From Candidatus Brocadia sinica JPN1 (GTDB lineage Bacteria; Planctomycetota; Brocadiia; Brocadiales; Brocadiaceae), in contig NZ_BAFN01000001.1 of NCBI RefSeq assembly GCF_000949635.1, forward strand, positions 2,779,673-2,843,672: DNA of 64,000 bases, read 5' to 3'. This document shows, piece after piece, positions 18,797-64,000 of this stretch (position 1 is the first letter of the stretch; the number at the start of each line of letters is the position of its first letter). The notes beneath the pieces are model-generated. The model was not told where the DNA came from. It ran no database searches and saw only the letters and a list, made by a program, of their open reading frames with translations. The position numbers were made by a program, and so were the translations under genes.

Positions 18797-18884
18797 TAGG
18801 GGAAGGTCGTTGAGAGAAGCAGGACAGGAATTGAGCATGTTTGTAACATTGGAGTATATCTCGATTATAGGAGGATAGAGAAAG

Positions 18885-19907: not shown

Positions 19908-19983
19908 GTAGTGGAAGTATTGGAAGAGAAAGTAATTGGTTCAAGTGGAATATTTTAAGAAAGTGAAAGGAGAAGGCCAACAG

Positions 19984-22413: not shown

Positions 22414-22474
22414 TGCCTGAAGGAAATCCCTGAGCTTGTCTTCATGAAGGCCGGGAACCGGAAGTAAGACAACT

Positions 22475-22526
22475 GAAGAGCTGGGTTAGGCGGGTTTCTC
22501 CCCTCCTCCCAGCTCTTCGTGTTTTT
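22475..22526 (+). terminator. Intrinsic terminator after the hydrazine synthase genes
   Basis: GAAGAGCTGGG (22475-22485) pairs perfectly with CCCAGCTCTTC (22508-22518), then GTGTTTTT. It ends the hzs transcript, so hox needs its own promoter. Confidence 0.85.
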
Positions 22527-22592
22527 AACTTTGCAGAGGTGTCAAAAAAGGAAAAAGTGATCAAAAAGAGGCGCTAATTTCTCAAAAATCGC

Positions 22593-22620
22593 TTGACAAG
22601 ATTCATTGTAAATGTATAAT
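22593..22620 (+). promoter_or_regulatory. Sigma-70 promoter for the HOX-type octaheme gene
   Basis: Perfect TTGACA (22593-22598) and perfect TATAAT (22615-22620) with a 16-base spacer. It implies a leader of about 190 bases before the start at 22818. Confidence 0.75.
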
Positions 22621-22693
22621 GTAAAAGCTTTGTGTTGTATTTGTTTTGTGTCCTATCTGCAACAATACATCAGTAAAGGAAGTTGTGTGGGAA

Positions 22694-22745
22694 GGGGGTG
22701 GTTTGGCCAGGCAGGAGAAATTTATTGTGTCAACTGTTACCAAAA
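22694..22745 (+). promoter_or_regulatory. Leader segment shared with the HDH gene (copy 1)
   Basis: In the 5' leader, GGGGGTGGTT is followed by a GCAGGAGA motif and a TTGTGTC-like motif. The same order occurs before the hydrazine dehydrogenase gene at 26907-26955. A TTG-initiated frame beginning at 22704 stays open for 40 codons and overlaps the hox start. It could be a leader peptide or an RNA regulatory element. Confidence 0.35.
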
Positions 22746-22817
22746 GGAATGTGCTGATATCTTTGGTAATACAATGTAGTGAAAAGGTTCGGGATATGAA
22801 AGAAAGGAGAAGTTGTA

Positions 22818-46559: not shown

Positions 46560-46919
46560 TTACTTCTCTGCCTCACCTTCTGGTACATAGATTACCTTTC
46601 CATCTTTTAGTCGATAAGCTGTCCCCAGTCGAGTGCCTTCTCCCTGTAAATTCTTATCGGTAACTTTTTCAATTCTTATCTGTTTGCCCTTTTTGGTAAC
46701 AATCTCTACCTGACCAGTGTCGTTTTTCCTGACCATGGTAATTTCTGTTTTTGGTGAGAGGAAGTCAAGCAGGCTGTAGGCGCTAATTAATGCGCCAATA
46801 AGACCCACAATAAAGACTACTCCTACATCAAAAAGATTGGCTACACCCGACATAGGATCTTCCTGATGGAGATCGGCTTCCTTTCCGATTACCCGTCGTC
46901 TTTTCTTAAGATATCTCAT
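46560..46919 (-). CDS. DUF2149-like membrane protein of the corrinoid locus
   Basis: 119 residues from the ATG at 46919. One membrane helix (about 25-48: NLFDVGVVFIVGLIGALISA) is followed by a small extracytoplasmic domain. The pattern DPMSGVANLFDVG fits DUF2149, small proteins found beside MotA/TolQ-like and CobN-like genes. By analogy with ExbD it may pair with the channel protein encoded just upstream. The longer frame to 47021 runs into a repeat and is rejected. Last gene of the corrinoid operon. Confidence 0.72.
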   Translation of the reverse strand: MRYLKKRRRVIGKEADLHQEDPMSGVANLFDVGVVFIVGLIGALISAYSLLDFLSPKTEITMVRKNDTGQVEIVTKKGKQIRIEKVTDKNLQGEGTRLGTAYRLKDGKVIYVPEGEAEK

Positions 46920-46928
46920 TTCAGTTTT

Positions 46929-47025
46929 CTTCACCGCAGAGTACGCAGAGGTCGCAGAGAAAAGGAGGCTGAGGAGTTCTGAAGTTTGTCTTCTCAACTT
47001 TTCGTCTTCCCAATTTCTCAACGTC
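46929..47025. repeat. Dispersed repeat (CGCAGAG type) inside the operon
   Basis: TTCACCGCAGAGTACGCAG opens a segment rich in CGCAGAG and CTTCTCAAC-like words. It is related to the segment inserted in a riboswitch at 54532-54669. It fills most of the gap between the channel gene and the DUF2149 gene. Confidence 0.5.
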
Positions 47026-47027
47026 TG

Positions 47028-47696
47028 CTAATCCCTCGGCGCGCTGCGGTAAACTATTCCTCCCTTTTCCATAATACATTCCGTAAAATACTCAAGATTC
47101 TTTATATCCTCATGAATCCACCTGTTTTTTATCATAGAAAGAAAATAGGCAATGATTCCAATCGCCAATCCTACGACCGTTGTTGTAAAGGCAATGATGA
47201 TATTGCTCGACAGCTTTTCAAGATCTCCTTGAGATAATGCCGACAATGCCGGACCCATCGGGATTATCGTCCCCATCAACCCAAGAGTAGGGCCTACACG
47301 GATCAGGAGCCGGAGGTTATCCAGATCTTTAACCATTTTTTGTTCCATACTTTGCAATAGATATTCTATGCGAACCTCTCTGCTGCAATTATTCTTTTTT
47401 AGTTCGTTGACAAGTTCTCTAAAGTATTCCCTAAAATAAAATGGCATCTCCTGGGTTTCCCGAAATGTTCCATGCAGGATATATTCATTATTCTGTTCCT
47501 GTTCCAGAAGAGATTCTACGAATTCCTTTGGTTCCTGCCTGCGGGTTTGTTTCTTCCGTTCCCAATATTCTGAGACAAATCCTCCCATGGTTATCATCAT
47601 CAAAAAGAAAAAAACTACCAATAAAATTATGACGGGATAAAGCATCGCTGATGAAAGGACAGAAAGAATGGTTTGTAATAGAGTGAGAAGATTCAT
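47028..47696 (-). CDS. MotA/TolQ/ExbB-type proton channel protein of the corrinoid locus
   Basis: 222 residues. An N-terminal membrane helix (about 15-38), a long cytoplasmic loop, and two C-terminal helices (about 135-155 and 165-190) with the family text GPTLGLMGTIIPMGPALSAL. Such proteins form ion channels that energise outer-membrane processes. A full exbB-exbD-tonB set lies at 55279-57061, so this is a second, distinct channel that most likely works with DUF2149 and the CobN-like protein. It starts 19 bases after cobN. Confidence 0.83.
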   Translation of the reverse strand: MNLLTLLQTILSVLSSAMLYPVIILLVVFFFLMMITMGGFVSEYWERKKQTRRQEPKEFVESLLEQEQNNEYILHGTFRETQEMPFYFREYFRELVNELKKNNCSREVRIEYLLQSMEQKMVKDLDNLRLLIRVGPTLGLMGTIIPMGPALSALSQGDLEKLSSNIIIAFTTTVVGLAIGIIAYFLSMIKNRWIHEDIKNLEYFTECIMEKGGIVYRSAPRD

Positions 47697-47715
47697 GATT
47701 TCCTCTTTTAAAATT

Positions 47716-50700
47716 TTAATTTCGAAGGCCTTTTCCTATCCATCCGTAAACGAAAAAACAGATACAGCCCACCACGACGACAATGACAATCCATGGTTTA
47801 TCAAATTTAGTAACGCTTAGGTTCCTTTCATTCGTTTTTATCTCTTTCATCTCCAATCCTTTGACTATTTCGGCCTTTCCAGCATCTTCATCCTCTGATT
47901 TCCACTCATCGGCCTTTTCAATCTTCTCTTTATCCTGTGTTTGTCCGGTATCCTTTCTCTGTTCAATACTTCCCGGGTCAGGTTTTGACATAGACGCCTG
48001 AACTTGAACGATCCTGTCCATCTCTGTCTTTCGTTCGTTTAGCAACTTACCGGTAGCTGTTTTTAAGACCTCTGCATACTGAATCAAGGTATCTGGAGTT
48101 ACGAGACCAGGGGTATTCAAAATATCCGTTGCATAGTGCTGGAAGGCTGGGTTGTTGCAGGTTTGCACACAGCAGGCTACACCGTGTTCTATTACCGTTG
48201 TCATGTATTCCTTCGCCAGGGTTTGTTTGATTTTTTCCGTAGGCTGCCAGTAACCTTTTCGTATCGTCTCCAGCATTCTGGCCGTAACGGCTTGATACGC
48301 ATAAGGGTTTTTCTTACTGAAAAATTCCTTCAAATCCATTCCGTATTTATCCTCGACATAAACTTCAAACGTCTCTTCCCAACGGGCAGAGTCCATTGTC
48401 TCTGGTACAGTGACCTGCCAGCCCCACATGTTTTCAACAAATTCAGCCATCTTATTTGCCCCTTCAAAACCTTCCTTCTTCATCCCTTCAATCCATTCCG
48501 GATTCCAATAGCGTGACCGTAGTTCCATACCCATCATCCTGTCGATCGGGGTCATTTCCGGCCTGGCTGGATTCATCATGTTAGTAATTACCAATTCAGG
48601 TGACTTTCCATCCAATTTCCTGATTGCAGCCGCCGGCCCCCCTGCGTACATGAAAAAGTCATCATTATCAACAGTCCCGTACAGGTTGGTAGAACAGCTA
48701 TGAACAACCATTCTGGTTCCGCTTAGCACCATTTTATAGACATCCTCCATGGGTTCTCCCCACAAACCGTTCCCATACCCATAACTCATCCGTTTCAGAT
48801 ATTCATCCGCTACGACAGAATCGTCTTCCCAACTTCCACTTGCGCTTACGATGCGTGAGACATTCAGATCATAACGCCCAGGGGCTTCATCAAAGATTCT
48901 AACCGCTGCGTATTGTTCGGCCTTCTTTTGCGGCCAGCCTTTTTGAATCAGCCTCCCGGTTACTTCCTTGATATGTTGTTGAATCTGGTTGTCTTTTTCA
49001 TCAAGTCCTTTTACCATTTGAACGGCCTGGTCGATGTATTGGGTCAACTGTCCAAACATCTCTTCTGCCGCCGAAGAAACGACGATGTCAATTCTTGGAC
49101 GGCCCAACTTCTCTTTCGGTATGATCTTAATCCCCGTTACCTTCCCCCATTCATTCCAAATGGGCTCAACCCCCAATAAATAAAGGATCTGGGATTCCAG
49201 TACCCCTTCGTGGTGTATCGTTTCGGTACCCCATATAACAAAGGACAATTTCTCAGGATATTTCTCGTTATTTTTCGCCCGATAATCATCGAGTAGTTCT
49301 TGAGTCAATTTGACGCCCACCTGCCAGGCCTCTTTTTTGGGTATCTTATCCGGATTAAAGGCATAAAAGTTTTTCCCCGTAGGCAGTGAATTTGGATTTC
49401 TTACGGGGTCATTTCCGGTTCCCGTTGGTATATATTGTCCATTCATGGCCTTAACCAAATTGGACAATTCCCGCTTTGCCCCTTCCTGGATGTTTTTGTC
49501 CAATTCATGGGCAGGGATATCTTTGATAACCTCTTTTATCGCCTGAATGGTGGATGTACGAAGCAATTCATCCGGTGCATTACCGAATGTATGCAATCCG
49601 TAAGGCATATTAAGCTGCTTCAATTCCTGAAGATACTCTCCTATTTTATGAATGACTTCGTGACCAAACCTATGCTGGTCATCGCTTTGAGTATCAATAT
49701 TCAAATACTCGCTAATTTCTATATCTTTCTCAAGTCCCAAATCTTTTACCTTTTTTATAATATTTTCCATGTATTGCCTTGCAAGTGCGGCATCCTGTTC
49801 CAGTGCCCGGTCATGGTCACCGATCAGCTCTTCAAGTTCGGCATACTCGTGATAAAGTCCACCCTTTTTTAAAGGAGGAATCATGTGATCTATAACGACG
49901 GCTGCTCCCCGCCGTTTTGCGACAAGCCCTTCACCAACATCGTCTACGATGTAAGGATACATGACCGGCAAATCCTGAATCAACGCCTCCGGTGGATCAT
50001 CACCAGAAAGACCGTTGCTTTTCCCTGGCAGCCATTCATGTGTGCCATGTGTGCCGAAATGAATTACCGCATCTGCGCCAAAGCCATGCTTCAGCCATAA
50101 ATATGCCCCTACATATTGATGGTGAGGGGACAGGTCTTTACTATGGTACAAGGCTTCTTTATCCTGCAGCCAGCCCCTTACCGGCTGGGGAAGGATAACA
50201 ACGTTTCCCCGCCTTATTGCGGGAATAACCATATATTTCTTCTTTTGCTTCGGGTCAGTCCACATCATCACATTGGATTCTTCAACCGTTCCCCAATCCT
50301 TATGAACGTCTTTCATAAAATTTGCCGGTAAACTCCTCGCCCACCTTTGATACTCTTCCAGAGGCAGCAATACACATTTCCCGTTCCTTACCATCCCGTC
50401 AAGTTCGCCTGGTGCCCAATTCCCAACGTTTTTCCCGTATCTTAGGGAATTTTCAAGCAGTATCTCTTTATCCATGGTTTCATTGCCAACGTCATATCCA
50501 TTTCCCTTCATCATCTTTAACACATTCTCAATACTGGCGAAGACATTCAGGTAACTGGCGCCGATATGTTGCTTCCCTGGTGGATAATTCCAATACAACA
50601 GGGCTACCTTTTTCTCCAGGTTGTTTTTTCTCTGTAAATTGATCCAGGCCCTTATACGGTCGACAGCCCGATCAATACGCTCAGGTATGGGTTTTCGTTG

Positions 50701-51801
50701 TTCGACAAAAAAGCCTGTTTCATCATCTTTTTCACGAATTCGATATGAAACGACCGTAGGTTGTATAAGACCGGCAATTTCTGGAATAGCCAACTGCCAG
50801 CTTACCTCCAAAGAACTCAAACCTTCGGGATCGTTCTCCCACGTCTTTCCATCCTTTCCGTAAACGGTAATCAAATTAACCACAGGTATCCCGCATTTTT
50901 CCAGGGAGTCTGGAGCTTTGAAATCTGAAAAACGAAAGAGAAAAGACAGTATGCCAGAAACTCGTGAACCCCCTTTGGAATCGACTAATAATTTCTCAAT
51001 AACAGCATCCTCAGGATAGCCAAATGCTACAAAGGCATTGAATCCCTTTTCTTCAATGGTACGGATCAGTTCATCTTCAACAGATGCCTGTCCTTGCTCA
51101 TAAAATGATGAGTATGTCAGGATTGCTACCCATTCTGCATTTTCTTTCACGTAGCCTGCATCTCGATACCAATTCTGATATTCCTCGAATGTCTCAAAGA
51201 GTTTTTCATCCCGTTGGTAATGATAATAGGCCATCTTTAATCCTTCTTTGGGCGGATTGGCAGTAAGTTCCGGGAAAGGTAAATATTTCTTTAATGAAAG
51301 CAGGATCATATTCTTAAAATTCCCGGTGCTTGAATACCGTAAATATGAGCGGATTTCTTTATCGTATGTTAATCCTATGGCTGCATATTGTGAATCCAAC
51401 CCGGCTGTTTCACCAACGGCAAGAACTGTTGCGCCACGGTCAATTACCTCCTTTAATACTTCAAAATCAAAGCCTGATTGAGTAGGTGTGGAGATACGGA
51501 TACCGTGCACATCAAATAAAATAAGATTTGAATCCAGAATCTCGTTCGGATTAAATCCCGATTCAAGATCGGTTTTGCTGATGATTTCAAACGTGACCCG
51601 GTCTTTAAGAAAGGGGTAATCTTGCCAGATCGCTTTCATTGTCTTGACAACACTTGAGGTCATATAGTCCCCTACAATACAGGTGTATTTCACACCATGT
51701 TCGTGATGATGCTCTTCGTGAAGGTGCCCTTCGTGGGCAAAGGAAATGTGTTGAAAAGAAAAGAGCAAGGCAAGCAGGATTGTCAACATATGTCTTTTCA
51801 T
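47716..51801 (-). CDS. cobN: Exported, membrane-anchored CobN-like cobaltochelatase homologue
   Basis: 1361 residues. The CobN/BchH-type body is clear: GTHGTHEWLPGKSNGLSGDD in the middle and YGNGLWGEPMEDVYKMVLSG later. CobN normally works in the cytoplasm. Here the N terminus is a signal peptide (about 1-22) followed by a His-rich stretch (about 23-36), and a single membrane helix lies near the C terminus (about 1333-1355). That places the body outside the cytoplasmic membrane. No CobS/CobT ATPase subunits are nearby. The gene overlaps the DUF4430 gene by four bases (ATGA), downstream of a cobalamin-regulated receptor. Metal insertion, corrinoid remodelling or corrinoid transport are all possible. 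Confidence 0.87.
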   Translation of the reverse strand: MKRHMLTILLALLFSFQHISFAHEGHLHEEHHHEHGVKYTCIVGDYMTSSVVKTMKAIWQDYPFLKDRVTFEIISKTDLESGFNPNEILDSNLILFDVHGIRISTPTQSGFDFEVLKEVIDRGATVLAVGETAGLDSQYAAIGLTYDKEIRSYLRYSSTGNFKNMILLSLKKYLPFPELTANPPKEGLKMAYYHYQRDEKLFETFEEYQNWYRDAGYVKENAEWVAILTYSSFYEQGQASVEDELIRTIEEKGFNAFVAFGYPEDAVIEKLLVDSKGGSRVSGILSFLFRFSDFKAPDSLEKCGIPVVNLITVYGKDGKTWENDPEGLSSLEVSWQLAIPEIAGLIQPTVVSYRIREKDDETGFFVEQRKPIPERIDRAVDRIRAWINLQRKNNLEKKVALLYWNYPPGKQHIGASYLNVFASIENVLKMMKGNGYDVGNETMDKEILLENSLRYGKNVGNWAPGELDGMVRNGKCVLLPLEEYQRWARSLPANFMKDVHKDWGTVEESNVMMWTDPKQKKKYMVIPAIRRGNVVILPQPVRGWLQDKEALYHSKDLSPHHQYVGAYLWLKHGFGADAVIHFGTHGTHEWLPGKSNGLSGDDPPEALIQDLPVMYPYIVDDVGEGLVAKRRGAAVVIDHMIPPLKKGGLYHEYAELEELIGDHDRALEQDAALARQYMENIIKKVKDLGLEKDIEISEYLNIDTQSDDQHRFGHEVIHKIGEYLQELKQLNMPYGLHTFGNAPDELLRTSTIQAIKEVIKDIPAHELDKNIQEGAKRELSNLVKAMNGQYIPTGTGNDPVRNPNSLPTGKNFYAFNPDKIPKKEAWQVGVKLTQELLDDYRAKNNEKYPEKLSFVIWGTETIHHEGVLESQILYLLGVEPIWNEWGKVTGIKIIPKEKLGRPRIDIVVSSAAEEMFGQLTQYIDQAVQMVKGLDEKDNQIQQHIKEVTGRLIQKGWPQKKAEQYAAVRIFDEAPGRYDLNVSRIVSASGSWEDDSVVADEYLKRMSYGYGNGLWGEPMEDVYKMVLSGTRMVVHSCSTNLYGTVDNDDFFMYAGGPAAAIRKLDGKSPELVITNMMNPARPEMTPIDRMMGMELRSRYWNPEWIEGMKKEGFEGANKMAEFVENMWGWQVTVPETMDSARWEETFEVYVEDKYGMDLKEFFSKKNPYAYQAVTARMLETIRKGYWQPTEKIKQTLAKEYMTTVIEHGVACCVQTCNNPAFQHYATDILNTPGLVTPDTLIQYAEVLKTATGKLLNERKTEMDRIVQVQASMSKPDPGSIEQRKDTGQTQDKEKIEKADEWKSEDEDAGKAEIVKGLEMKEIKTNERNLSVTKFDKPWIVIVVVVGCICFFVYGWIGKGLRN

Positions 51802-52187
51802 TTTTGCTCTTCCTTATTATGGGTACAAACATCCTTTGTGTATTCCCACCTCATAGAGTCACCCTCACTGAGAATACATTGATTGGCAAAGGATGTTGCA
51901 CGTTTACCGTTGATGTTGTAATACCACGCCCTGTTTCCAATTTTCATAATTATATTATCAATAGATATAACCAAAAAATATTCCTCATGCTTTTGCGTTT
52001 CGATCTTTGCAACAGATTGAAGCGCCTCCAGGGCAGTAATACCCTGTTTCCATGGTATCTCCACTTTACGACTCTGTTGCAGCCCTCCGTAGTCAATTTC
52101 TACGGTTACAAGCTGGCTGGCACCGTATGTAGCCGGCAAAAGCACAAAAACAATAAATATTCCTAATATTCTTTTTACGTGGTTCAT
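51798..52187 (-). CDS. Small exported DUF4430 (transcobalamin-like fold) protein
   Basis: 129 residues: signal peptide (about 1-22), then one small domain with the pattern GITALEALQSVA, then YYNINGKRATSFANQCILSEGD and WEY. This fits DUF4430, the beta-grasp domain seen in transcobalamin/intrinsic-factor C-terminal regions that binds cobalamin. It is a good candidate for a periplasmic or surface corrinoid-binding protein. GGAGGAAAAAA precedes the ATG. The stop overlaps the cobN start, so the two are made together. Confidence 0.75.
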   Translation of the reverse strand: MNHVKRILGIFIVFVLLPATYGASQLVTVEIDYGGLQQSRKVEIPWKQGITALEALQSVAKIETQKHEEYFLVISIDNIIMKIGNRAWYYNINGKRATSFANQCILSEGDSMRWEYTKDVCTHNKEEQK

Positions 52188-52294
52188 TTTTTTCCTCCTT
52201 ACCGATTGCGGAATAACGTCACGGGTTTCAATATGTTACATAAAGTTATTTGTCTCTTTTCATCACCTCCTGATTCTTCTGTTTTATTTTGCTT

Positions 52295-54412
52295 TTAAAA
52301 CTTAAATTCCATTCCGCCGTACGCTGTAAAACCAAGGGAACCAAAACCTGTTACCTCTTCGTACCCGTAATCAAAAAGGTTTTCAAACCTGACATACGCG
52401 GTCATTACCTTTGTGATGTCATACCGAGTTGCCAGATCAGTGGTCCAGTAGTTGTCCATTTCCTTACCATCACTGTCTATCCTGCCTCTCACCATAATGC
52501 CGGTTACATTAATAGTTAATTTCTCAAGGGGTTGGGCATTCATCCCGAGGGTTCCTCTGTTTCTTGGTCTGCGCGGTAGTTGTTGCTCTTTCTCTCTATC
52601 CTTTGTATCGGTATACGTATAGGTTCCCGTTAATGAAAGTTTGTTGTAAGGTTTATAGGTTAAGCGGGTTTCAATTCCTTCTGACTCTGCCCTGGCGACG
52701 TTTTCTGCCAAAAAACTTCCGTCAGATTGTATCGCGGCCGTAATCAAATCAGTAAAATCATTCTTAAAATACGTAACATCCATGGTAAGTTTCTCTTTGA
52801 GGATTTCTTTCTCCACCCCAAAGTCCCAGCCCTTACTCTCTTCCGGATTGAGATTTGGATTACCAAAGAAGGGGAAAAAAAGTTCATTTAAACTCGGCGC
52901 ACGAAAACCCTTTCCCCACGATCCATGAAGCCGGGTACTAATCTTCTCCATGTTATATGATGCCGTTGTTCTATACGTAAGATTGTTTCCAAAGGTGCTG
53001 TAATCATCGTAACGGAATCCTGCGGTCCAATGTAACGATTCAAATAATTTGATTTGATTCTGGAAGAACACAGAGTTGTTCCAAAACTGCTTATCAAAGT
53101 TACCGGCATTTTCACCCTCCTGTACCTCATATTCATAGCCTATGGTTACCGTATCGACGTCAAACAGAGTAAAGTCGGATTGATGCTCCAGCCTCCATAC
53201 TCGCGTAAGGATACGAAACTCGCCCAATTCGTCAGTAGGGTCAAAGCCTTCCAGTTCTGTATCGTTGACTGAGACGAGAAATGAAGGTGTCCACAGGTCA
53301 AAAAACGTTTTCCTAACCTTCGTCGAAAAAAGAATCTCATCTGTTGTCTGGCGCCGGTCAGTGTCGTCTACCGGACCAATTCCATATTCAAATGCATCGT
53401 ATTCAAAATCTGAGTGAGACCCCCGTATCGTTGTATCAACCCTTCCGTTGTCCAGGAAATTCCACCCAAGACGTGAGGAACCGGTAAAATTATCGTAACC
53501 GTCCTCTTCGCTTCCACTGCTGGCAGCGGATATTCCATGGGTTTTCAGATAGGAAGCACCTGCTGAATAATCAAATTTTTCCTTTCCACCGGAAATATGA
53601 ATCGTTTCTCTAAAGGAATCGTGCATTCCGTATTCTGTCCCCACAGTAACTTTGGTATCACCTGAGCCTTTTTTTGTAATAATGTTAATGACGCCGCCGA
53701 TGGCTTCCGAGCCGTACAAGGTACTTTGAGGGCCACGCAGGACTTCAACCCGTTCAATGTTATCAGTTGTAAGGTTTGCAAAGTCAAACGCCCCGGTTGT
53801 AGGGCTATTCATCTGAACACCATCGACAAAGACGAGTGTCTGGGCAGCGGATGCCCCCCGTATGAACAAACTGGTAGTTCCTCCAATTCCCTGTGTTCTT
53901 GTGACTTCAAGTCCTGGTAGTTGGCGCAGGACATCGATTAATAGTGGTGCTTTGCTATTCTCAATCTCTTTTTGTGTAACGACAGACAGAGAACTGCCGA
54001 CATTTTTTAATAACTGTTTCGTTCTTGTCGGAGTAATCACCGTCTCTTCTTTATCCTTATTTTGTTCATCCGGTGATAGATCGTCTTTGGGTATTTCCGG
54101 TGAAGGTGTTTGATCCTGAGATAACGGCTCATTTTCAGCAACTGGTGGTAATGGTTCTCTTTTAGTCTCTTCCGGACTGTTTTTTTCTTCTTCTGGCTGT
54201 GGATGCATTGCCTCTTTTAGTTCTATCTCTTCTTCAGATTTTGTTTCCTTCACAAATGCGGGTATTTCTTCCTTGTCCGGTATACGAATAATAAACCTTT
54301 CTTCCAAAAGAGGTTTCCTTGGAACAGGTTCTGATATTTCTCCAGCTAAAGCAGTTTTACAATAAAAGTTATGCGCTAAAATAATCATCAGCATGATAAA
54401 TACATATTTCAT
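52295..54412 (-). CDS. btuB: TonB-dependent cobalamin receptor (BtuB-like)
   Basis: 705 residues from the ATG at 54412 (AGAGAGGA before it). Signal peptide (about 1-24), then an unusual acidic, Pro-rich linker of about 100 residues, then the TonB box region EETVITPTRTKQLL, the plug (LRQLPGLEVTRTQGIGG, VEVLRGPQSTLYGSEAIGG) and a 22-strand barrel ending in F-K-F. BtuB-like receptors import cobalamin. The proximal riboswitch ends about 45 bases before the start, which supports the substrate. It is first gene of btuB-DUF4430-cobN-motA-DUF2149. An in-frame ATG at 54463 falls in the riboswitch and is rejected. Confidence 0.88.
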   Translation of the reverse strand: MKYVFIMLMIILAHNFYCKTALAGEISEPVPRKPLLEERFIIRIPDKEEIPAFVKETKSEEEIELKEAMHPQPEEEKNSPEETKREPLPPVAENEPLSQDQTPSPEIPKDDLSPDEQNKDKEETVITPTRTKQLLKNVGSSLSVVTQKEIENSKAPLLIDVLRQLPGLEVTRTQGIGGTTSLFIRGASAAQTLVFVDGVQMNSPTTGAFDFANLTTDNIERVEVLRGPQSTLYGSEAIGGVINIITKKGSGDTKVTVGTEYGMHDSFRETIHISGGKEKFDYSAGASYLKTHGISAASSGSEEDGYDNFTGSSRLGWNFLDNGRVDTTIRGSHSDFEYDAFEYGIGPVDDTDRRQTTDEILFSTKVRKTFFDLWTPSFLVSVNDTELEGFDPTDELGEFRILTRVWRLEHQSDFTLFDVDTVTIGYEYEVQEGENAGNFDKQFWNNSVFFQNQIKLFESLHWTAGFRYDDYSTFGNNLTYRTTASYNMEKISTRLHGSWGKGFRAPSLNELFFPFFGNPNLNPEESKGWDFGVEKEILKEKLTMDVTYFKNDFTDLITAAIQSDGSFLAENVARAESEGIETRLTYKPYNKLSLTGTYTYTDTKDREKEQQLPRRPRNRGTLGMNAQPLEKLTINVTGIMVRGRIDSDGKEMDNYWTTDLATRYDITKVMTAYVRFENLFDYGYEEVTGFGSLGFTAYGGMEFKF

Positions 54413-54457
54413 TTGTATCCTCTCTTTCCCCTCGGAAATAAGAATTGATAAAATCGT

Positions 54458-54766
54458 GTTCAAGCAGGTCTCCTGGCTGCCGGATCATCCTACGTCCTGC
54501 GCCTTCCCATCCTGTTTTTGTAATTGCTTAGTTCATCGCAGAGAACGCAGAGGAAAAGAACAGAATATGAGAAATTGTGAAGATCGGAAGTTGAGAAATG
54601 CAATCTCACAACCTCTTAATTTTTCAACATCCTGTTTTTCTCTGCAACCTTTGCGTCTCTGTGGTGAGCCCTTCCCCAATCAGGACCGTGGCATCGTGCA
54701 GCGTTCGTCACCGGTTACAGTTGCGGGGCAGCTCCCGTTTCTACGGGATTCCCTGGATATTTGAAC
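54458..54766 (-). promoter_or_regulatory. Cobalamin riboswitch A, proximal to btuB, with insertion
   Basis: Read on the minus strand, it begins at TTGAAC pairing with GTTCAA (54761-54766 with 54458-54463). It contains the GGGAATCCCG arm, CCCGCAACTGTAACCGGTGACGA-type core, the B12-box region around GCCACGG and ends GGATGATCCGG...CAGGAGACCTGC. The core is normal, but about 140 bases replace the variable arm hairpin seen in copy C. No terminator lies between it and the btuB ribosome site, so control is probably on translation start. Confidence 0.85.
54532..54669. repeat. Dispersed repeat inserted in the variable arm of riboswitch A
   Basis: Begins TTCATCGCAGAGAACGCAG and ends CTCTGTGGTGAGC; the ends are imperfect inverted repeats. 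A related copy is at 46929-47025. ATCCTGTTTTT occurs on its left side (54509) and again inside (54629). The segment occupies the place of a 40-base hairpin in riboswitch C. Confidence 0.65.
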
Positions 54767-54795
54767 AATGATAAATCTCAGAACATTCAGCTAGA

Positions 54796-54820
54796 CACGG
54801 ATAAACACAGTTTATCCGTG
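54796..54820. other. Hairpin between terminator 1 and riboswitch A
   Basis: CACGGATAAAC (54796-54806) pairs with GTTTATCCGTG (54810-54820), 11 base pairs with a 3-base loop. No T-run on the minus strand. It is perhaps a small repeat. Confidence 0.5.
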
Positions 54821-54930: not shown

Positions 54931-54957
54931 ACTCCGAAGAAGTATTTTCAGCATACA

Positions 54958-55206
54958 TTACAGGCAGGTCTTCTGACTTGCGGATCACCCTACTGGTTGC
55001 ACCTTCCCGGAAAACCGTTCAATCAGTTTAAACCGTTGAAACGGCTTTCCAGTGGCTCTTGCAACGTTCGTCACCGGATACAGCGGCGGTACCGTTCCCT
55101 TTCCTTCTCATTTCTGACGGTAAGGAATAACGCATTCATTACCATCAGAAATTCGTTGAAGTTGGGATTTCCTTTTTATCCCGATAGATATATCGGAATA
55201 CCTGTA
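54958..55206 (-). promoter_or_regulatory. Cobalamin riboswitch B, distal
   Basis: On the minus strand the ends TACAGGTA and TGCCTGTA pair. The core contains CCGCTGTATCCGGTGACGAACG, the B12 box GCCACTG, a hairpin built on CCGTTGAAACGG-like text, GGGAAGG and CCGCAAGTCAGAAGACCTGCC, the hallmark of the cobalamin class. It is followed by terminator 1 and then by riboswitch A, making a tandem pair before btuB. Confidence 0.92.
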
Positions 55207-55278
55207 TGTGAAATCTCTTGTTTAATATTGAGCTACTCAGTTACATAGTATGTTCCCCCTATATTCAAGGATAGTCCG

Positions 55279-56037
55279 TCAGTGAGATCTTCTTTCTGAA
55301 TCTTCCAGGCGAAATCTAACAGGGATTGCCACCACGGATTTAACAGGTGAGTCTCCTATCCGTTCAGGTTGAAATCTCCAACGCTTAACTGCCTTTAAAG
55401 CCGCCTGATCAAGGAGTGGATAGCCACTACTCTGTTCAACTTCAACCTGAACCGGTATACCTTTTTTATCTATCTCCACCCTGAGTATCACGAGCCCTTC
55501 CTGACTCATTTGCTTTGCAAGTTGGGGATATTCCGGTGGTTGATTCCGGAAATAACCGGGTTTGCTTTTCGTTCTGATCGTTCCTAAAGAAGGACGCGGC
55601 ATAGCGTTAGCTGTTTCTTGCTGTTTTTGTATTGTTGAAGTAATGGATTTAGCTGTATCTATATTTGATTGAGGCAGTGTCACCTGCTCTTCCTGCGGCA
55701 TAATTTTAACTGGTTCCTGCTGTTTTTCTGTTGTGGGCGTAGAGGATTGCACCGTAACTACACTTGGCTGTGCCGGTGCCTCCGGTTTTTCCTGAGGTTT
55801 TTTCCTTGCAGATGTAATGGATTGGGCTGACTCCGTGTCTGATTGTGACACGGCAGTCAACAGATCTACGTCAATGCTCCCATAGTCTGATTGAACGCTA
55901 TACTGAACAGGCGTAACAAAATACTTCCCGCCAATAAAAAATAAGATACCATGAATGAATAGTGCAAGGATAAATCCTTTAATCATACCGTGGTTGCAGG
56001 ATTTGATTTTGTGGTAGCTGAATCTATCAGTTATCAT
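55279..56037 (-). CDS. tonB: TonB energy-transducing protein
   Basis: 252 residues. One N-terminal membrane helix (about 18-36), a long Gln/Pro/Thr linker, and the C-terminal TonB domain (PPEYPQLAKQMSQEGLVILRVEID to WRFQPERIGDSPV). The linker holds three loose repeats around SITS...QKQQE...MP. It passes proton-motive energy from ExbBD to the receptors. Its start overlaps the exbD stop (ATGA). Confidence 0.9.
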   Translation of the reverse strand: MITDRFSYHKIKSCNHGMIKGFILALFIHGILFFIGGKYFVTPVQYSVQSDYGSIDVDLLTAVSQSDTESAQSITSARKKPQEKPEAPAQPSVVTVQSSTPTTEKQQEPVKIMPQEEQVTLPQSNIDTAKSITSTIQKQQETANAMPRPSLGTIRTKSKPGYFRNQPPEYPQLAKQMSQEGLVILRVEIDKKGIPVQVEVEQSSGYPLLDQAALKAVKRWRFQPERIGDSPVKSVVAIPVRFRLEDSERRSH

Positions 56038-56456
56038 TTTTGCAAAGGGTCTCCCTGCTTTGTCTGAATGGCGACTTTCGTGATTCCAGAAGACCTTACC
56101 TCGTCAAGTATTTGAATTGCATTGCCAAAATAGGCTTCTTTGTCCCCATTGATAAAAACCCTCATGTCGGGATTTTCCGTCTTTAACTGTTTCAAGCGCA
56201 GGAGTAATAGACCTGGAGCCAGTTTTTCTTGATTGAGGTATACATCTCCTGACTTTGTGACGGTGATGGTTACTGCTGTCTCGCGCTCTTGAGGGGTACC
56301 TGTAGCGGCGGAGGGCAAATTCACACTGATGCCCTGATTCTTGACCATTGAAAGAGAAACCATTACAAAGGTTGCCAAAAGAAAAAATATAACATCAATA
56401 AGCGGAATGATTTCTATCCTTGCCTTCCGTCTGGTTGTTGGTAGTGGTATCTTCAT
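56034..56456 (-). CDS. exbD: ExbD biopolymer transport protein
   Basis: 140 residues. One N-terminal membrane helix with the essential Asp (IPLIDVIFFLLATFVMVS), then a periplasmic domain (KSGDVYLNQEKLAPG...VFINGDKEAYFG). It forms the proton channel with ExbB. Four-base overlaps join it to exbB before and tonB after. Confidence 0.92.
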   Translation of the reverse strand: MKIPLPTTRRKARIEIIPLIDVIFFLLATFVMVSLSMVKNQGISVNLPSAATGTPQERETAVTITVTKSGDVYLNQEKLAPGLLLLRLKQLKTENPDMRVFINGDKEAYFGNAIQILDEVRSSGITKVAIQTKQGDPLQK

Positions 56457-57061
56457 AGATTTTTGTCCTGCTTTAATAGCAAAAGTTCGAGATGCGTGGT
56501 GGCATCCTCAATTTTATGCCTGGCTTCTTCAAGGCGTGCATTGAGATAATTAAAAGGAATAAGCGCGACAATAGCAGTGATTAGGCCGTATGCAGTGGCA
56601 ATTAAGGCCTCGGCAATGCCACCGGTGATAACCGTGGGAGACTCAAGCTCCCTGCCGCCCAAAAGACCAAAGGCTTGTATCATGCCGGTCACCGTACCAA
56701 AAAGACCAAGGAGCGGCGCAAGGGTAATAATGGTGTCAAGCACCGGAAGCCCCCGGTTAAAACGCTTAAGTTCCTTATTTGCAGCCTGCAAAAGGGCGTT
56801 TGAAAATGCCTTGTGACGGTGGCGAAGTCCGTAAACAAGAGTGACGGCAACAAAATCATTGCATCCTTCTCCTGCCTGAATCGCTTCTTCAATTTTTCCT
56901 CTCTCAACTTCAGAAAATATCTTTCCTACCGTTTCCGGATACCTTGATTTTTTTTCACGGATAAGAAATGCAATCCGCTCTATAATTACGGTTAGGGCTG
57001 CCAAAGACGCAACGAGGATAGGCCACATGACAGGTCCTCCTCGTAAAAATAAATAAAACAT
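56453..57061 (-). CDS. exbB: ExbB biopolymer transport protein (MotA/TolQ family)
   Basis: 202 residues with three membrane helices. The family text LDTIITLAPLLGLFGTVTGMIQAF lies in the second, and the third is near 155-178. It makes the channel body with ExbD. It starts 18 bases after the receptor gene. The set exbB-exbD-tonB probably serves both receptors here. Confidence 0.92.
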   Translation of the reverse strand: MFYLFLRGGPVMWPILVASLAALTVIIERIAFLIREKKSRYPETVGKIFSEVERGKIEEAIQAGEGCNDFVAVTLVYGLRHRHKAFSNALLQAANKELKRFNRGLPVLDTIITLAPLLGLFGTVTGMIQAFGLLGGRELESPTVITGGIAEALIATAYGLITAIVALIPFNYLNARLEEARHKIEDATTHLELLLLKQDKNL

Positions 57062-57079: not shown

Positions 57080-59419
57080 TTAAAACCGGAAAGTCAGCGC
57101 GGCACGTACCGCAATGGGTTCAACCGGTTTAAAGTGAATGTCATTATGAGGAGCGTCCTCCTCTTTCAAGCGCGATGGATAATAATAATCAATCTCGTGA
57201 TCCCTGTTGTCAAGGAGGTTGAAACCCTCGACACTGATAGTCCAATTTTCGTTGAAATTATAGCCCACCTTCGCGCTCAACAGACTGGTTGATCCGGAAC
57301 GGACGCTATTGTCTTCCGTAAGAGGACGGGGGCCAAAAAAACGCAACCGTAGTTCACTGAAGAGGCCACGTTCGCCTGGCTGATAGAACGCAATTCCCGT
57401 GGATATAACGCTGTCAATTGCGCCGGGTATGTGCCTACCCTGCACTCCTTCACCCTCAACAGTTTCACGAAACTCAGCGTGCGAAAACGAGAAATCGGCA
57501 TCCAGGGAGAGCCATTTGGTGGGTGTGTAGTAATTTGTCCACTCGACACCATAACGCCTGGTCGGAGCGCTGGCTTCGGTGCTACCAGCGTCTCCGGAAA
57601 AAACCAGCTCAGAATCAATATCCAGCAACCACAGCGCTAACGTGCTTTGCAACCCCTTAACAATAGTTGTGCGTACACCGATTTCCACCCCTTTTGTACG
57701 CACCAAAGGATCTGCGGATTCCACAGGATCTCCTGTCTTTGGATCAACATGTTGTGTCACACCGCGTCCAGAATTGCTGTGGAAACCGAAGCCACCGCTC
57801 AGGTAGTACTCCGTTTTGGCCCACGGACCGAAGATAAGCGACCCTTTTGGACTAACGAGCGCATCATCTCGTGTGCCTGAGTTGGCGGACAAATCACCGT
57901 CTACATCAAAGTAGTAATAATCCATTCGCAATCCAAAAACCGTGCGGAATTTGTCCGCCCATTGAACCTTATTCTCGACATAGGGGGAAAGACTCGCCTC
58001 CCACACATCATCCTCACGGGTTGTGCCGGAAATCGTTTCACCGTCATAATCAACCTTATCCGTGCGATGACGGTTGACGGTTTGGAACAGGCCATTTTTA
58101 ATCGAATCGCTGCGTATTTGCAGGCCAACGGTGTTTTCCATATCACGGCTAAAGATATCGCCATACCATGTATGACTGGCCTTTAGCCCTCCGACTCCCC
58201 GCTTGTCTTCTTGCTCAAACTGATCACCCTGAGGACTATCAAGAAAATAGGTGAAATTGGAAAATAGATCAAGGTCATAGTAGAATCCGTATAACAATAC
58301 TTTCGTGGAAGAATCTGTATCAGCACGGTGCCATTCCGCGGAAAGACTGTGACGTTGCGAGTCGCCGCCGTCGTTTGAACCCAGAGAATCGAAACGGTCA
58401 AAACCAGGAATTACATCCAGGGCGCGTTGGGCAATTTGGTCGGTTGCGTTCCAGTTCCCGGCGTATGACATGGATGTTATGCTATAGCCCCACTCTGGTG
58501 TGCCCCGACTGTAGCGCAATACACCATTTATCCTCTTGTAATCGTCCGGCTCGGTCCAGGGGCCGTCATTATGGAATAATTCAACGGCAGAAAGGATATT
58601 TCCACTTCCGACAAGATGTGATGAGGCATACAGGCTACGCGCATATCCGAAACTGCCGCCTTCCACCTGCGCTATACTTTGCGGAAGAAAACTAACATAG
58701 TGGATGTCTGCGGCGCCTGCGGAGGAAAAATCACCGAGGTCTGCATAATAAGGTCCTTTTCGGAAATCCACACGCTCGATCAGTTCAGGGATCATGAAAT
58801 TCAAATCAGTATAGCCCTGGCCATGTCCATGGGTGGGCAGATTTACCGGAACGCCGTTGACCGATGTGGCAAAGTCTGTTCCGTGGTCAAGATTAAAGCC
58901 GCGCAGAAAGAACTGATTCGCTTTACCGGCGCCACTGTGCTGGGTGACGATAACGCCGGGAACCGCCTCCAGCACTTCGCCGGGGCGCGACAGGGTGCGC
59001 CATTCCAACTCGTCCTTCCCTCTAGTACCTTGAGATGCCGCGCCTGCGATACCGAGCAGACTGTCCGCTTGTCCAAAGACTAATACTTCCGGCAAAAGAA
59101 ATGCATCTGCTGCAGAAGACGTTGCATTTGTGGGCTGTTGAACGGTGTCTGTTGAATTACCGGTATTGTTGTCACTTTCTTCTGGTTGGTGAGAAAAATC
59201 TATATCTCCTAAATATGACGTCGAAGAACCGGCTTTACCTTGTTCTCCTGTTGCCTTCTGCCATGCTGATTGCTTTGGCATTTCCTCGCCGCCCTCTGCT
59301 TCCTTTTCTTCCGAAAGATATTTTGTTGGAGCAGATTCTGATGTTTCCCCAGGTGAAGCGGTTTTACAATAAAAGTTAGGCGCCAAAGTAATTACCAACA
59401 AAATTAAAAGATACCTCAT
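57080..59419 (-). CDS. TonB-dependent receptor under cobalamin riboswitch control
   Basis: 779 residues. The signal peptide is similar to that of the BtuB-like receptor (NFYCKTA in both). A hydrophilic Ser/Gln-rich linker of about 85 residues precedes the TonB box (LPEVLVFGQ), the plug (LEAVPGVIVTQHSGAGKANQ, FLRGFNLDHGTDFATSVNG) and a barrel ending L-T-F-R-F. The barrel is not close to BtuB. Riboswitches C and D suggest a corrinoid, cobinamide or cobalt complex as cargo; which one is not visible. First gene of receptor-exbB-exbD-tonB. Confidence 0.88.
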   Translation of the reverse strand: MRYLLILLVITLAPNFYCKTASPGETSESAPTKYLSEEKEAEGGEEMPKQSAWQKATGEQGKAGSSTSYLGDIDFSHQPEESDNNTGNSTDTVQQPTNATSSAADAFLLPEVLVFGQADSLLGIAGAASQGTRGKDELEWRTLSRPGEVLEAVPGVIVTQHSGAGKANQFFLRGFNLDHGTDFATSVNGVPVNLPTHGHGQGYTDLNFMIPELIERVDFRKGPYYADLGDFSSAGAADIHYVSFLPQSIAQVEGGSFGYARSLYASSHLVGSGNILSAVELFHNDGPWTEPDDYKRINGVLRYSRGTPEWGYSITSMSYAGNWNATDQIAQRALDVIPGFDRFDSLGSNDGGDSQRHSLSAEWHRADTDSSTKVLLYGFYYDLDLFSNFTYFLDSPQGDQFEQEDKRGVGGLKASHTWYGDIFSRDMENTVGLQIRSDSIKNGLFQTVNRHRTDKVDYDGETISGTTREDDVWEASLSPYVENKVQWADKFRTVFGLRMDYYYFDVDGDLSANSGTRDDALVSPKGSLIFGPWAKTEYYLSGGFGFHSNSGRGVTQHVDPKTGDPVESADPLVRTKGVEIGVRTTIVKGLQSTLALWLLDIDSELVFSGDAGSTEASAPTRRYGVEWTNYYTPTKWLSLDADFSFSHAEFRETVEGEGVQGRHIPGAIDSVISTGIAFYQPGERGLFSELRLRFFGPRPLTEDNSVRSGSTSLLSAKVGYNFNENWTISVEGFNLLDNRDHEIDYYYPSRLKEEDAPHNDIHFKPVEPIAVRAALTFRF

Positions 59420-59464
59420 TTACATCCATCCTTTCCCCTCGGAAATAAGAATTGACAAATTCAT

Positions 59465-59637
59465 GTTCAAACAGGTCTCCTGGCTTCCGGGTCTTCCTAC
59501 TTTCTGCGCCTTCCCGGAAAGCCGTTTCAACGGTTTCAACCGTTGAAACGGCTTTCCCGTGGCATTGTGCAGCGTTTGTCGCCGGTTACAGTTGCGGGGC
59601 AGCTCCCGTTTCTACGGGATTCCCTGAACATTTGAAC
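59465..59637 (-). promoter_or_regulatory. Cobalamin riboswitch C, proximal to the second receptor
   Basis: On the minus strand GTTCAA/TTGAAC ends pair. The element carries the GGGAATCCCGTAGAAACGGG arm, CCCGCAACTGTAACCGGCGACAAACG, GCCACGG, a perfect hairpin GAAAGCCGTTTCAACGGTTG-type arm, GGGAAGG and the GGAGACCTG end. It lies about 45 bases before the receptor start with no terminator between, as for riboswitch A, to which it is homologous; it lacks the repeat insertion. Confidence 0.9.
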
Positions 59638-59658
59638 AACAAAATAAAATCCACACGG

Positions 59659-59826: not shown

Positions 59827-59850
59827 CTCGAAGAAGTTTTTTCAGCAATC

Positions 59851-60111
59851 ATTACAGGCAGGTCTTCTGACTAGCGGATCATCCTACTGGTTGCACCTTC
59901 CCGAGAAGCCGTTTAAACCGTTTGAGCTGTTCAAGCCGTTTAAATGACTTTCCAGTGGTTTCTGCAACGTTCGTCACCAACTACAGCGGCGGTACCGTTC
60001 CCTTTTCTCCGAATTTCTGATATAAGGAATTAAGTATTAATTATTGTCAGAAATTCGTTGGAGTTGGGATTCCCTTTTTCGTCCCAATGAATATATTGGA
60101 ACACCTGTAAT
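59851..60111 (-). promoter_or_regulatory. Cobalamin riboswitch D, distal
   Basis: On the minus strand ATTACAGGT pairs with GCCTGTAAT at the ends. The core has CCGCTGTAGTTGGTGACGAACG, the B12 box near CCACTGG, GGGAAGG, and CGCTAGTCAGAAGACCTGCC. It is homologous to riboswitch B over its whole length and is followed by terminator 2, so it should act on transcription. Confidence 0.9.
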
Positions 60112-60177
60112 GGGTAATTTATTTTTCCCTAAGCAAATGTTACATATACACTCCTTCACCAGAAAATTCCCTTAACC

Positions 60178-62473: not shown

Positions 62474-64000
62474 TCAGGATAATTTCAATATATTATAGAC
62501 TGTATTCATGTCCATATTCTCACGAACAATGTCGGCCAATTTATTGTATCTTTGCTCCTTTATGCTTTTAAAACCCACATGACATTCACGAGACGGTTCC
62601 AATCCCTTTTTTGACCTGAGACAATTCATGAGCTTTAACCGGAATTCGTCGTTATCAAAGATACCGTGTATATAGGTACCCAGCACCTTGCCATCGGCAG
62701 AAACACAGCCATCCAGTATGTTCACTGTTTTTCCAGCCCGTTCGGTAATCCTTGCAAAAGGCTTAAGAGCCTTATGTCCGTTAAATATCGTATCTCCCAT
62801 GTGAATTTCATAGCCCGCTAACTCATCATTGACATGAAACAAATTTTCATGATCAAGCAGGGACGCCTTTACCTGATAGGTCTGTTTTTCCCTGGCAAAG
62901 GTAGTTACGGTGTTTAGTAAACCCATGCCCTGAATACTGTCCGTTGCCGATTCGACATGATACGGGTCATTGATCTGCTTTCCTAACATCTGGTATCCGC
63001 CACAAATACCCATAATCATCGTTCCGCACATTGATAGATTTTTGATTTCTTCAGAAATATCCCTTTCTTCCAAAAAGATTAAATCCCCTATAGTATTTTT
63101 TGTACCCGGGATAATTAGCAAGTCCGGCTTGCCAATATTTTCAGCCTTATCCACAAATCTCACTCTGACATCTTTTCCATGGGTAAATATATTGAAATCG
63201 GTAAAATTTGATATACGGGGTAATTTGATTACAACAATATCGATGAAAGAAGCCGGGAGTCGGGAGTCGGGGGTCAAGGCCTTGTCTCCTGTATTCTGAC
63301 CCCTGACCCCTGATCCCTGATCCCTATCATTGTTGCCCGAATACTCAAGTGAAACGGAATCTTCGTCATCGATGCTGAGATTGTGAATGTAAGGAATGAT
63401 ACCGAGAACAGGTTTATTGATACGGTTTTCCAGCATATCCAATCCTGGCTGTAATATGCCTTTGTCTCCCCGGAATTTATTAAACACAATCCCCTTTACC
63501 CTGTCTCTCTCAGTTGCTGTTAACAATTCTAATGTCCCGACAATCCATGCAAAGGCACCGCCACGGTCAATATCTGTTACCAACAATACAGGGGCCGATG
63601 CCATTTTTGCCATACCCATATTGACGATATCGTCATCTTTCAGGTTTATCTCAGCCGGGCTGCCTGCCCCTTCAATAACAATAATGTCGAACCGGTTTCT
63701 TAACGTATCATAAGCGCCTTTTATGATCGAAATAAATTCACCCTTCTTCTGATAATACTCCCTGGCAGTCATATTCCCTATTGGCTTACCCATGATAACA
63801 ACCTGTGAACCACAGTCACCTGTGGGTTTAAGGAGTATGGGGTTCATCTCGACCATAGGCTCAATTCCCGCTGCCTCCGCTTGCGCCACCTGCGCCCTTC
63901 CCATTTCCTTTCCGTCTTTCGTCACAAAGGAATTCAAGGCCATATTCTGCGCTTTAAACGGTGCAACCCTATAACCGTCCTGTTTCAAGATACGGCACAG
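62474..64000 (-). CDS. cobQ: Cobyric acid synthase, cut by window edge at the N terminus
   Basis: The frame runs off the right edge: the last bases read L-C-R-I-L-K-Q-D-G-Y, so about 20-25 residues with the ATP loop are outside. Visible: APFKAQNMALNS, VEMNPILLKPTGD, VIEGAGSPAEINL, and the glutaminase half with GICGGYQMLG (catalytic Cys) and YIHGIFDN (His). It amidates adenosylcobyrinic acid diamide. About 27 residues around 63250-63328 are not normal for CobQ and come from an in-frame repeat. Same strand and theme as the corrinoid uptake genes. Confidence 0.92.
   Translation of the reverse strand: MCRILKQDGYRVAPFKAQNMALNSFVTKDGKEMGRAQVAQAEAAGIEPMVEMNPILLKPTGDCGSQVVIMGKPIGNMTAREYYQKKGEFISIIKGAYDTLRNRFDIIVIEGAGSPAEINLKDDDIVNMGMAKMASAPVLLVTDIDRGGAFAWIVGTLELLTATERDRVKGIVFNKFRGDKGILQPGLDMLENRINKPVLGIIPYIHNLSIDDEDSVSLEYSGNNDRDQGSGVRGQNTGDKALTPDSRLPASFIDIVVIKLPRISNFTDFNIFTHGKDVRVRFVDKAENIGKPDLLIIPGTKNTIGDLIFLEERDISEEIKNLSMCGTMIMGICGGYQMLGKQINDPYHVESATDSIQGMGLLNTVTTFAREKQTYQVKASLLDHENLFHVNDELAGYEIHMGDTIFNGHKALKPFARITERAGKTVNILDGCVSADGKVLGTYIHGIFDNDEFRLKLMNCLRSKKGLEPSRECHVGFKSIKEQRYNKLADIVRENMDMNTVYNILKLS
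63250..63328. repeat. In-frame repeat insertion within cobQ
   Basis: Left side GGGAGTCGGGAGTCGGGGGT and right side GACCCCTGACCCCTGATCCC are imperfect inverted repeats about 79 bases in total. On the coding strand it reads as a Gly/Arg/Asp-rich segment (DRDQGSGVRGQNTGDKA) between the two halves of CobQ without a stop. Confidence 0.7.

Follow-up and report, generated by a model that had tools for sequence, protein, structure and literature searches.

We analysed a 64,000-nucleotide stretch of the Candidatus Brocadia sinica JPN1 genome (contig NZ_BAFN01000001.1, positions 2,779,673 to 2,843,672; hereafter the window), an anammox planctomycete in the family Brocadiaceae, and found that it encodes an exported, membrane-anchored CobN-like protein which, to judge from its sequence, is almost certainly a relative of the BtuS/HmuS-type chelatases. 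Its gene is one of five on the minus strand, identified by open reading frame and Pfam searches of the window, and we give about even chances to the reading that together they specify a corrinoid-handling complex that is driven by the proton-motive force (PMF) and serves B12 acquisition. An earlier note on this DNA had proposed that the five genes form a riboswitch-controlled set, and had not recognised the HmuS/BtuS family identity of the CobN-like protein. All five genes were found, the end given for the set corresponds to the btuB start codon (ATG 54412), and tandem RF00174 riboswitches lie upstream of it:

54946..55220, minus strand: cobalamin riboswitch, first of a tandem pair 5' of btuB (RF00174, 81.0 bits)
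54446..54809, minus strand: cobalamin riboswitch, second of the tandem pair, enlarged by a dispersed repeat (RF00174, 64.7 bits)
52295..54412, minus strand: btuB-like TonB-dependent receptor (TBDT), ATG 54412 (PF00593, 159.1 bits; PF07715, 100.6 bits)
51798..52187, minus strand: exported DUF4430 protein (PF14478, 38.1 bits)
47716..51801, minus strand: CobN-like protein of the BtuS branch, exported and anchored at its C terminus (PF02514, 1039.8 bits)
47028..47696, minus strand: MotA/TolQ/ExbB-type channel subunit (PF01618, 54.9 bits; cut-off 22.9)
46560..46916, minus strand: DUF2149 protein, probable ExbD/MotB-like partner (PF09919, 101.5 bits)

An exported CobN-like protein of the BtuS branch

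The best match of the CobN-like protein in the PDB was the haem dechelatase HmuS (9d26), which removes iron from haem and whose cleft residues have been described (PMC12583661); among named organisms, Candidatus Brocadia pituitae has its closest relative (92% identity). A tree of 64 sequences (IQ-TREE quick run, LG+G4, with Shimodaira-Hasegawa-like approximate likelihood ratio test [SH-aLRT] support only) placed all exported proteins in one 47-row clade that includes HmuS 9d26 (SH-aLRT 100). Besides HmuS, this clade holds a BtuS branch that contains the window protein (34 rows, SH-aLRT 96) and a third branch of planctomycete proteins, with true CobN forming a separate clade (SH-aLRT 99) and ChlH serving as the outgroup. 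HmuS entered the tree as HMMER-aligned fragments, BtuS of Bacteroidota and archaea were not included, and the HmuS alignments begin at residue 121, thus past the site-1 haem ligand Met79.

The N terminus of the protein reads MKRHMLTILLALLFSFQHISFA followed by HEGHLHEEHHHEHG, which resembles a signal peptide, and the C terminus forms a hydrophobic anchor. The export call rests on hydropathy and on conservation across orthologues, not on a dedicated predictor, and by this measure the protein remains extracytoplasmic. The signal peptide and anchor described in the earlier note therefore stand, as both are kept in orthologues, but the His-rich start that it also described occurs in some of them only.

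We marked residues H553, H561, H585, E589, W590, H1034, D1048, and C1210-C1215 in the window protein. By alignment, the HmuS cleft residues His506, His514, His538, and Glu542 correspond to H553, H561, H585, and E589, so that the catalytic His/Glu set, which the earlier note had named as a point to check, is kept. The position of HmuS His1209 is taken by Asp1048. Trp at position 590 and Asp at 1048 were present in 41 and 40, respectively, of the 42 BtuS rows, and both in all eight true CobN, whereas Phe and His occupy these positions in the ChlH/BchH-like (6/6) and HmuS-branch rows (3/3). These residue correlations point to a corrin-type cleft, and the Trp/Asp versus Phe/His signature could serve as a simple sorter of corrin-type from porphyrin-type proteins among uncertainly annotated 'CobN' genes. 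The column of the HmuS haem ligand His254 holds His in all three HmuS-branch rows; in BtuS it is Phe in 31 of 42 rows and His in one. In the window protein, 86 residues lie between positions 690 and 776, compared with 84 in CobN 9uk9 (partly padding between fragments) and about 240 between the two aligned blocks of HmuS, whose methionine-rich insertion is missing. Because His254 is replaced and this insertion is missing, the window protein, on the alignment, is not an HmuS. BtuS (39/42) and the HmuS branch (3/3) have in common a C-terminal Cys pair that CobN and ChlH lack.

The third planctomycete branch (loci L094, L097, L098, L107-L111, L113, and L114) keeps the His254 position (10/10), has changed cleft residues, and lacks the C-terminal Cys pair; its exported cobN usually sits after a TBDT gene.

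A MotA/ExbB-type channel pair accompanies exported CobN-like proteins

Genes for a MotA-type subunit and a DUF2149 protein were found near every exported cobN with intact flanks, amounting to 47 loci (the window and 46 others) that span anammox and other planctomycetes, Acidobacteriota, Gammaproteobacteria, Azospirillum, and Trichlorobacter. All exceptions have a contig end beside cobN, so the frequent occurrence of this CobN without the pair, which would have spoken against a functional link, was not observed. No channel pair lies beside the cobN/chlH-type genes without export signals (0/7, within the phylum). Since the pair goes with exported and not with cytoplasmic CobN, these gene neighbourhoods are most naturally read as the earlier note read them, with a dedicated motor that may stand in for CobS/CobT. 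As far as the literature searched shows, this strict link between channel and export across phyla is new.

The MotA-type subunit carries the conserved motifs P-x-LGL-x-GT-x-IPMG and AFTTT..GLA. DUF2149 probably starts at ATG 46916 (MRYLKKRRRV, as in its relatives) and not at TTG 47021, and in alignment it has an invariant Asp30 where the transmembrane helix begins, placed like the Asp of ExbD. A full exbB-exbD-tonB set, the presence of which the earlier note had stated, lies directly upstream of the operon. Because such a set adjoins the pair both here and on the plasmid of Trichlorobacter lovleyi, the MotA-DUF2149 pair more likely serves the chelatase than TonB, and it seems likely that the motor acts on BtuS. 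In Bacteroides, the ExbB/ExbD-like HmuU/HmuV have been assigned to TonB (PMC10100974), and the role of this pair in hmu operons is unsettled. That ion-driven stators may power periplasmic chelatases is now a directly testable idea, given that ExbB-ExbD-TonB adjoins the private pair and that the pair tracks chelatase export across phyla.

The DUF4430 protein is predicted to share the fold of B12 carriers

A profile search with the DUF4430 protein against PDB sequences found no relative, but fold comparison did. Its AlphaFold (AF2) model (mean predicted local distance difference test score [pLDDT] 77.7) matched the beta domains of transcobalamin, intrinsic factor, and haptocorrin with Foldseek E values of 1e-5 to 2e-4. 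VIA gave Z scores of 12.6-14.1 for B12-carrier beta domains and the DUF4430-like structure 3u7z, compared with 7.7 for the rows that follow, and the top 15 rows were without exception B12 carriers or 3u7z. The protein is thus predicted to have the transcobalamin beta-domain (beta-grasp) fold; it has no alpha/alpha toroid domain of the kind found in those carriers, and its gene lies between btuB and that of the exported chelatase. Stand-alone bacterial members of the transcobalamin-like SLBB superfamily, including planctomycete ones, were recognised in 2007 (PMC1796856).

The B12 regulon of B. sinica

All five RF00174 matches in the genome (4,077,002 bases in three contigs) are confined to 14 kb, and because they fall in this one stretch we conclude from the sequence that the locus is the riboswitch-controlled B12 regulon of B. 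sinica. The DUF4430 and cobN genes overlap by 4 bp and the gap between cobN and motA is 19 bp. The btuB-like receptor scores 311 bits against TIGR01779 (TonB-B12), under the cut-off of 599.7. Further features of the regulon within the window are as follows:

55279..57061, minus strand: separate complete exbB-exbD-tonB set (Pfam)
57080..59419, minus strand: second TonB-dependent receptor of the same B12 regulon (Pfam)
59453-59650 and 59840-60123: two riboswitches of the second TonB-dependent receptor (RF00174)
62474..64000, minus strand: cobyric acid synthase (CobQ/CbiP type), last gene of a cbiM-cbiQ-cbiO-cobD-cobQ run

This run, in which cobD is a threonine-phosphate decarboxylase-like gene, begins beyond the window edge under a fifth cobalamin riboswitch, located just past the window and 5' of cbiM (G000:C1:2847845-2848076; L086 9346-9577).

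The dispersed repeat noted above is about 130 bp long, with copies at 54529-54667, within the second riboswitch aptamer, and at 46931-47056, between motA and the DUF2149 gene; the two are 67% identical and in opposite orientation.

Distribution of BtuS loci and cobalamin genes

Cobalamin riboswitches accompany the BtuS locus in 11 of the 13 anammox loci scanned, in a family-f2 genome (L102), in two gammaproteobacteria, and on the T. lovleyi plasmid pGLOV01, where the BtuS set is placed among cobalamin genes. None was detected at the seven HmuS-branch and third-branch loci scanned. In several anammox genomes, as on the T. lovleyi plasmid, the cobalt importer genes cbiM-cbiQ-cbiO lie next to the BtuS locus, and both CbiC and CbiM were found in Brocadiaceae. 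Neither was found in genome G195, which is 94% complete and carries a riboswitch-controlled BtuS, or in four gammaproteobacterial genomes with BtuS; acidobacterial BtuS carriers (for which genome completeness is not given) yielded no CbiC and mostly no CbiM. All 19 genomes tested nevertheless had B12-binding domains, and the ones lacking CbiC were among them.

A strong match to FecCD (BtuC) was found in only 2 of 15 Brocadiaceae. BtuC was not found in the B. sinica genome, where the sole FecCD match (26.9 bits) is a Znu-like permease that adjoins its own binding protein and ATPase; here as elsewhere, the absence of BtuC, CobT, and DUF2162 from this genome is based on family searches.

A possible role in corrinoid acquisition at the cell envelope

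Taken as a working mechanism, BtuB would carry corrinoids over the outer membrane, powered by the separate ExbB-ExbD-TonB, and the DUF4430 protein, as a free-standing transcobalamin-beta-like domain, would hold them in the periplasm. The membrane-anchored BtuS could then accept the corrinoid in its CobN-type cleft and be cycled by MotA and DUF2149 acting as a proton-driven, stator-like motor, which would do the job that the ATPases CobS/CobT or ChlI/ChlD perform for cytoplasmic class I chelatases. The gene set, the riboswitches, the export signals, the family placement, the catalytic residues, and the co-occurrence with the channel were observed directly and the DUF4430 fold is predicted; we infer the motor coupling, the substrate, and the direction of the reaction. 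A corrinoid is probably the substrate of the BtuS system, as suggested by the riboswitches, the cobalamin gene neighbours, the predicted B12-carrier fold, the CobN-like Trp/Asp pair, and the loss of His254. The work done on it would serve release, hand-over, or correction of the metal state and not the harvesting of cobalt, and we rate uptake or conditioning of the corrinoid as an outcome slightly short of even. A periplasmic PMF-driven chelatase-type machine acting on B12 would be the first case of extracytoplasmic corrinoid metal chemistry, or else a BtuCDF-free uptake step, with a stator replacing AAA+ ATPases; we advance this only tentatively. If true, it would give a B12 route to anammox bacteria, most of which are without BtuC.

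Several observations weigh against corrinoid acquisition as the role of the locus. Corrinoid binding by its proteins is a prediction, and the fold that the DUF4430 model shares with B12 carriers is no proof of B12 binding. Among the loci read, those with DUF4430 beside BtuS are confined to Brocadia, Jettenia, and close kin, and because the protein is missing elsewhere it does not appear essential. MotA and DUF2149 show no visible membrane path for a corrinoid, and the likeness of DUF2149 to ExbD at Asp30 is a weak profile match (p 0.022, probability 2%), with a structure model so poor (predicted template modelling score [pTM] 0.27) that it was left out of the fold search. The kept chelatase residues would argue for metal chemistry over mere hand-over, no riboswitch was found at the four acidobacterial loci scanned, and Brocadiaceae without BtuS are likewise without BtuC. 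For this last reason BtuS is not simply a substitute for BtuCDF, and a straight replacement was rejected as a general rule.

A biosynthetic role of the protein, as an ordinary cobaltochelatase CobN of the late-insertion pathway, is barely credible. The Pfam CobN-Mg_chel and NCBIfam CobN models do match it, but it is exported and anchored, scores under all NCBIfam CobN cut-offs, and lies apart from the clade of true CobN. It is the only CobN found in the genome by family search, and CobT was not found: TIGR01651 had no match, with a positive control search in Caulobacter (CobS was not searched for). The genome also encodes the anaerobic route to corrin, including a CbiX-CbiC fusion, CbiD, CbiE, and CbiL-like genes (assigned by reading the sequences, CbiC alone by family search), and CbiX is therefore expected to insert cobalt at an early step, within the cytoplasm. 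Since CobT was not found and CbiX occurs with the anaerobic pathway, we conclude from the gene content that the exported protein is not biosynthetic; the earlier suggestion that it puts metal into corrinoids is thus unlikely in this sense. Haem proteins abound in anammox bacteria, which would suit a dechelatase of haem or another porphyrin that is merely under B12 control. The nearest characterised relative works on haem (PMC12583661). The absence of His254 and of the insert, cleft residues that are CobN-like and not porphyrin-type, the B12 riboswitches, the B12-carrier-like fold, and the cobalamin gene neighbours all stand against such an activity, which we consider improbable; action on some tetrapyrrole other than a corrinoid, more broadly, is slightly less so.

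Removal of cobalt is rather unlikely, but has more in its favour. BtuS would in this case free Co2+ in the periplasm, which would enter by the co-regulated CbiMQO for CbiX-based de novo synthesis, in keeping with the retained catalytic His/Glu residues, the cbiM-cbiQ-cbiO genes beside several of the loci, the presence of CbiC and CbiM in Brocadiaceae, and the CbiX-CbiC fusion of B. sinica. The corrin ring binds cobalt very firmly, however, and G195 and the four gammaproteobacterial carriers without CbiC/CbiM would lose the vitamin by giving up its cobalt. HmuS, which is both the closest relative of known function and the top match in the PDB, is itself a dechelatase (PMC12583661). Cobalt harvesting thus fits anammox bacteria, where cbiMQO adjoins, but not G195 or the gammaproteobacteria; because several BtuS carriers are without corrin synthesis and a cobalt importer, the idea that the protein pulls metal from corrinoids as a cobalt supply is weakened as a general role. 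PMF-driven insertion of cobalt into metal-free or wrongly metalated scavenged corrinoids, or metal exchange, seems less likely again. It would help auxotrophs too, it would account for the Trp/Asp pair of cobaltochelatase CobN, and the His-rich N terminus that some orthologues have could bind metal. We know of no abundant source of metal-free corrinoids, though, no CobW-like or other cobalt donor was seen in the locus, and the family search found no CobT in the genome. CobN-type insertion is thought to require energy, which counts in favour of this alternative (PMC7689651). Weighing these points, we place corrinoid acquisition ahead of the removal or insertion of cobalt and of chemistry on porphyrins.

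Comparison with known systems

The hmuYRSTUV operon of Bacteroidota (PMC12583661, PMC10100974) likewise combines an exported, anchored class I chelatase with ExbB/ExbD-like HmuU/HmuV and a TBDT, and HmuS resembles the window protein in its clade (SH-aLRT 100), its catalytic His/Glu residues, and its C-terminal Cys pair. The window protein differs from HmuS in having no His254, no large insert, and a CobN-type Trp/Asp pair in the cleft, and the B. sinica locus differs from the operon in that no HmuY was seen, no DUF2162 permease was found in the genome, and B12 riboswitches and a transcobalamin-like protein are added. Bacteroides fragilis has hmu-like operons with a cobalamin riboswitch and a CobN-like exported chelatase (PMC10100974). 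Compared by description and not by sequence, B. sinica belongs to another phylum and has tandem riboswitches, an adjoining cobalt importer and cobQ, and DUF4430. PMC6460266 credits Rodionov 2003 with BtuS as a third CobN-like type, and for BtuS and riboswitch-bearing hmu-like operons a role in cobalamin or metalloporphyrin salvage has been proposed (PMC10100974, PMC6460266).

Plasmid pSZ77 of Trichlorobacter (Geobacter) lovleyi was reported to carry CobN without CobS/CobT, its role being unknown (Wagner et al., PMC3403914). Its cluster (pGLOV01) shares with B. sinica the TBDT, MotA, DUF2149, BtuS-branch CobN, ExbB-ExbD-TonB, a further TBDT, cobalamin genes, and riboswitches, but differs in having DUF2162, lacking DUF4430, being plasmid-borne, and having the channel genes 5' of cobN. 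DUF2162 lies beside BtuS in T. lovleyi (L122 12161-12862) and in some anammox genomes, and has a PCPVC motif within a membrane segment that is reminiscent of thiol-redox conduits. The CobNST and ChlHID chelatases have a homologous, motor-driven large subunit with common cleft residues, but they are cytoplasmic and ATP-driven by AAA+ proteins, and have no signal peptide, anchor, or channel pair.

The BtuS type, the riboswitch-bearing hmu-like operons of B. fragilis, and the pSZ77 cluster are thus prior art. New, as far as the literature searched shows, are the anammox variant that adds a transcobalamin-like protein, the Trp/Asp versus Phe/His signature of the cleft, and the findings that speak against a general cobalt-harvesting role.

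Further observations at related loci

Kuenenia hertensis (L089, G182:C49) encodes a second CobN-like protein that is not exported, next to a strong FecCD permease, a BtuB-like receptor, and ExbB-ExbD-TonB. In another Kuenenia locus (L044), a further cobalamin riboswitch (17817-18042) is followed by a small open reading frame and then by a 1406-residue protein with CarboxypepD_reg domains (18603-22820). A close relative has cobN and btuB each broken over two frames (L040 7402-14076), which may reflect assembly error or decay. In a genome that has no CobN, a short DUF2149 remnant (44 bits; G248:C1:1307353-1307490) lies 10 kb from cbiM, which suggests that a copy of the BtuS locus has decayed there. 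Behind the gammaproteobacterial BtuS genes comes a gene for a protein of some 400 residues with no Pfam match (L060 7662-8870, L061 13854-15035).

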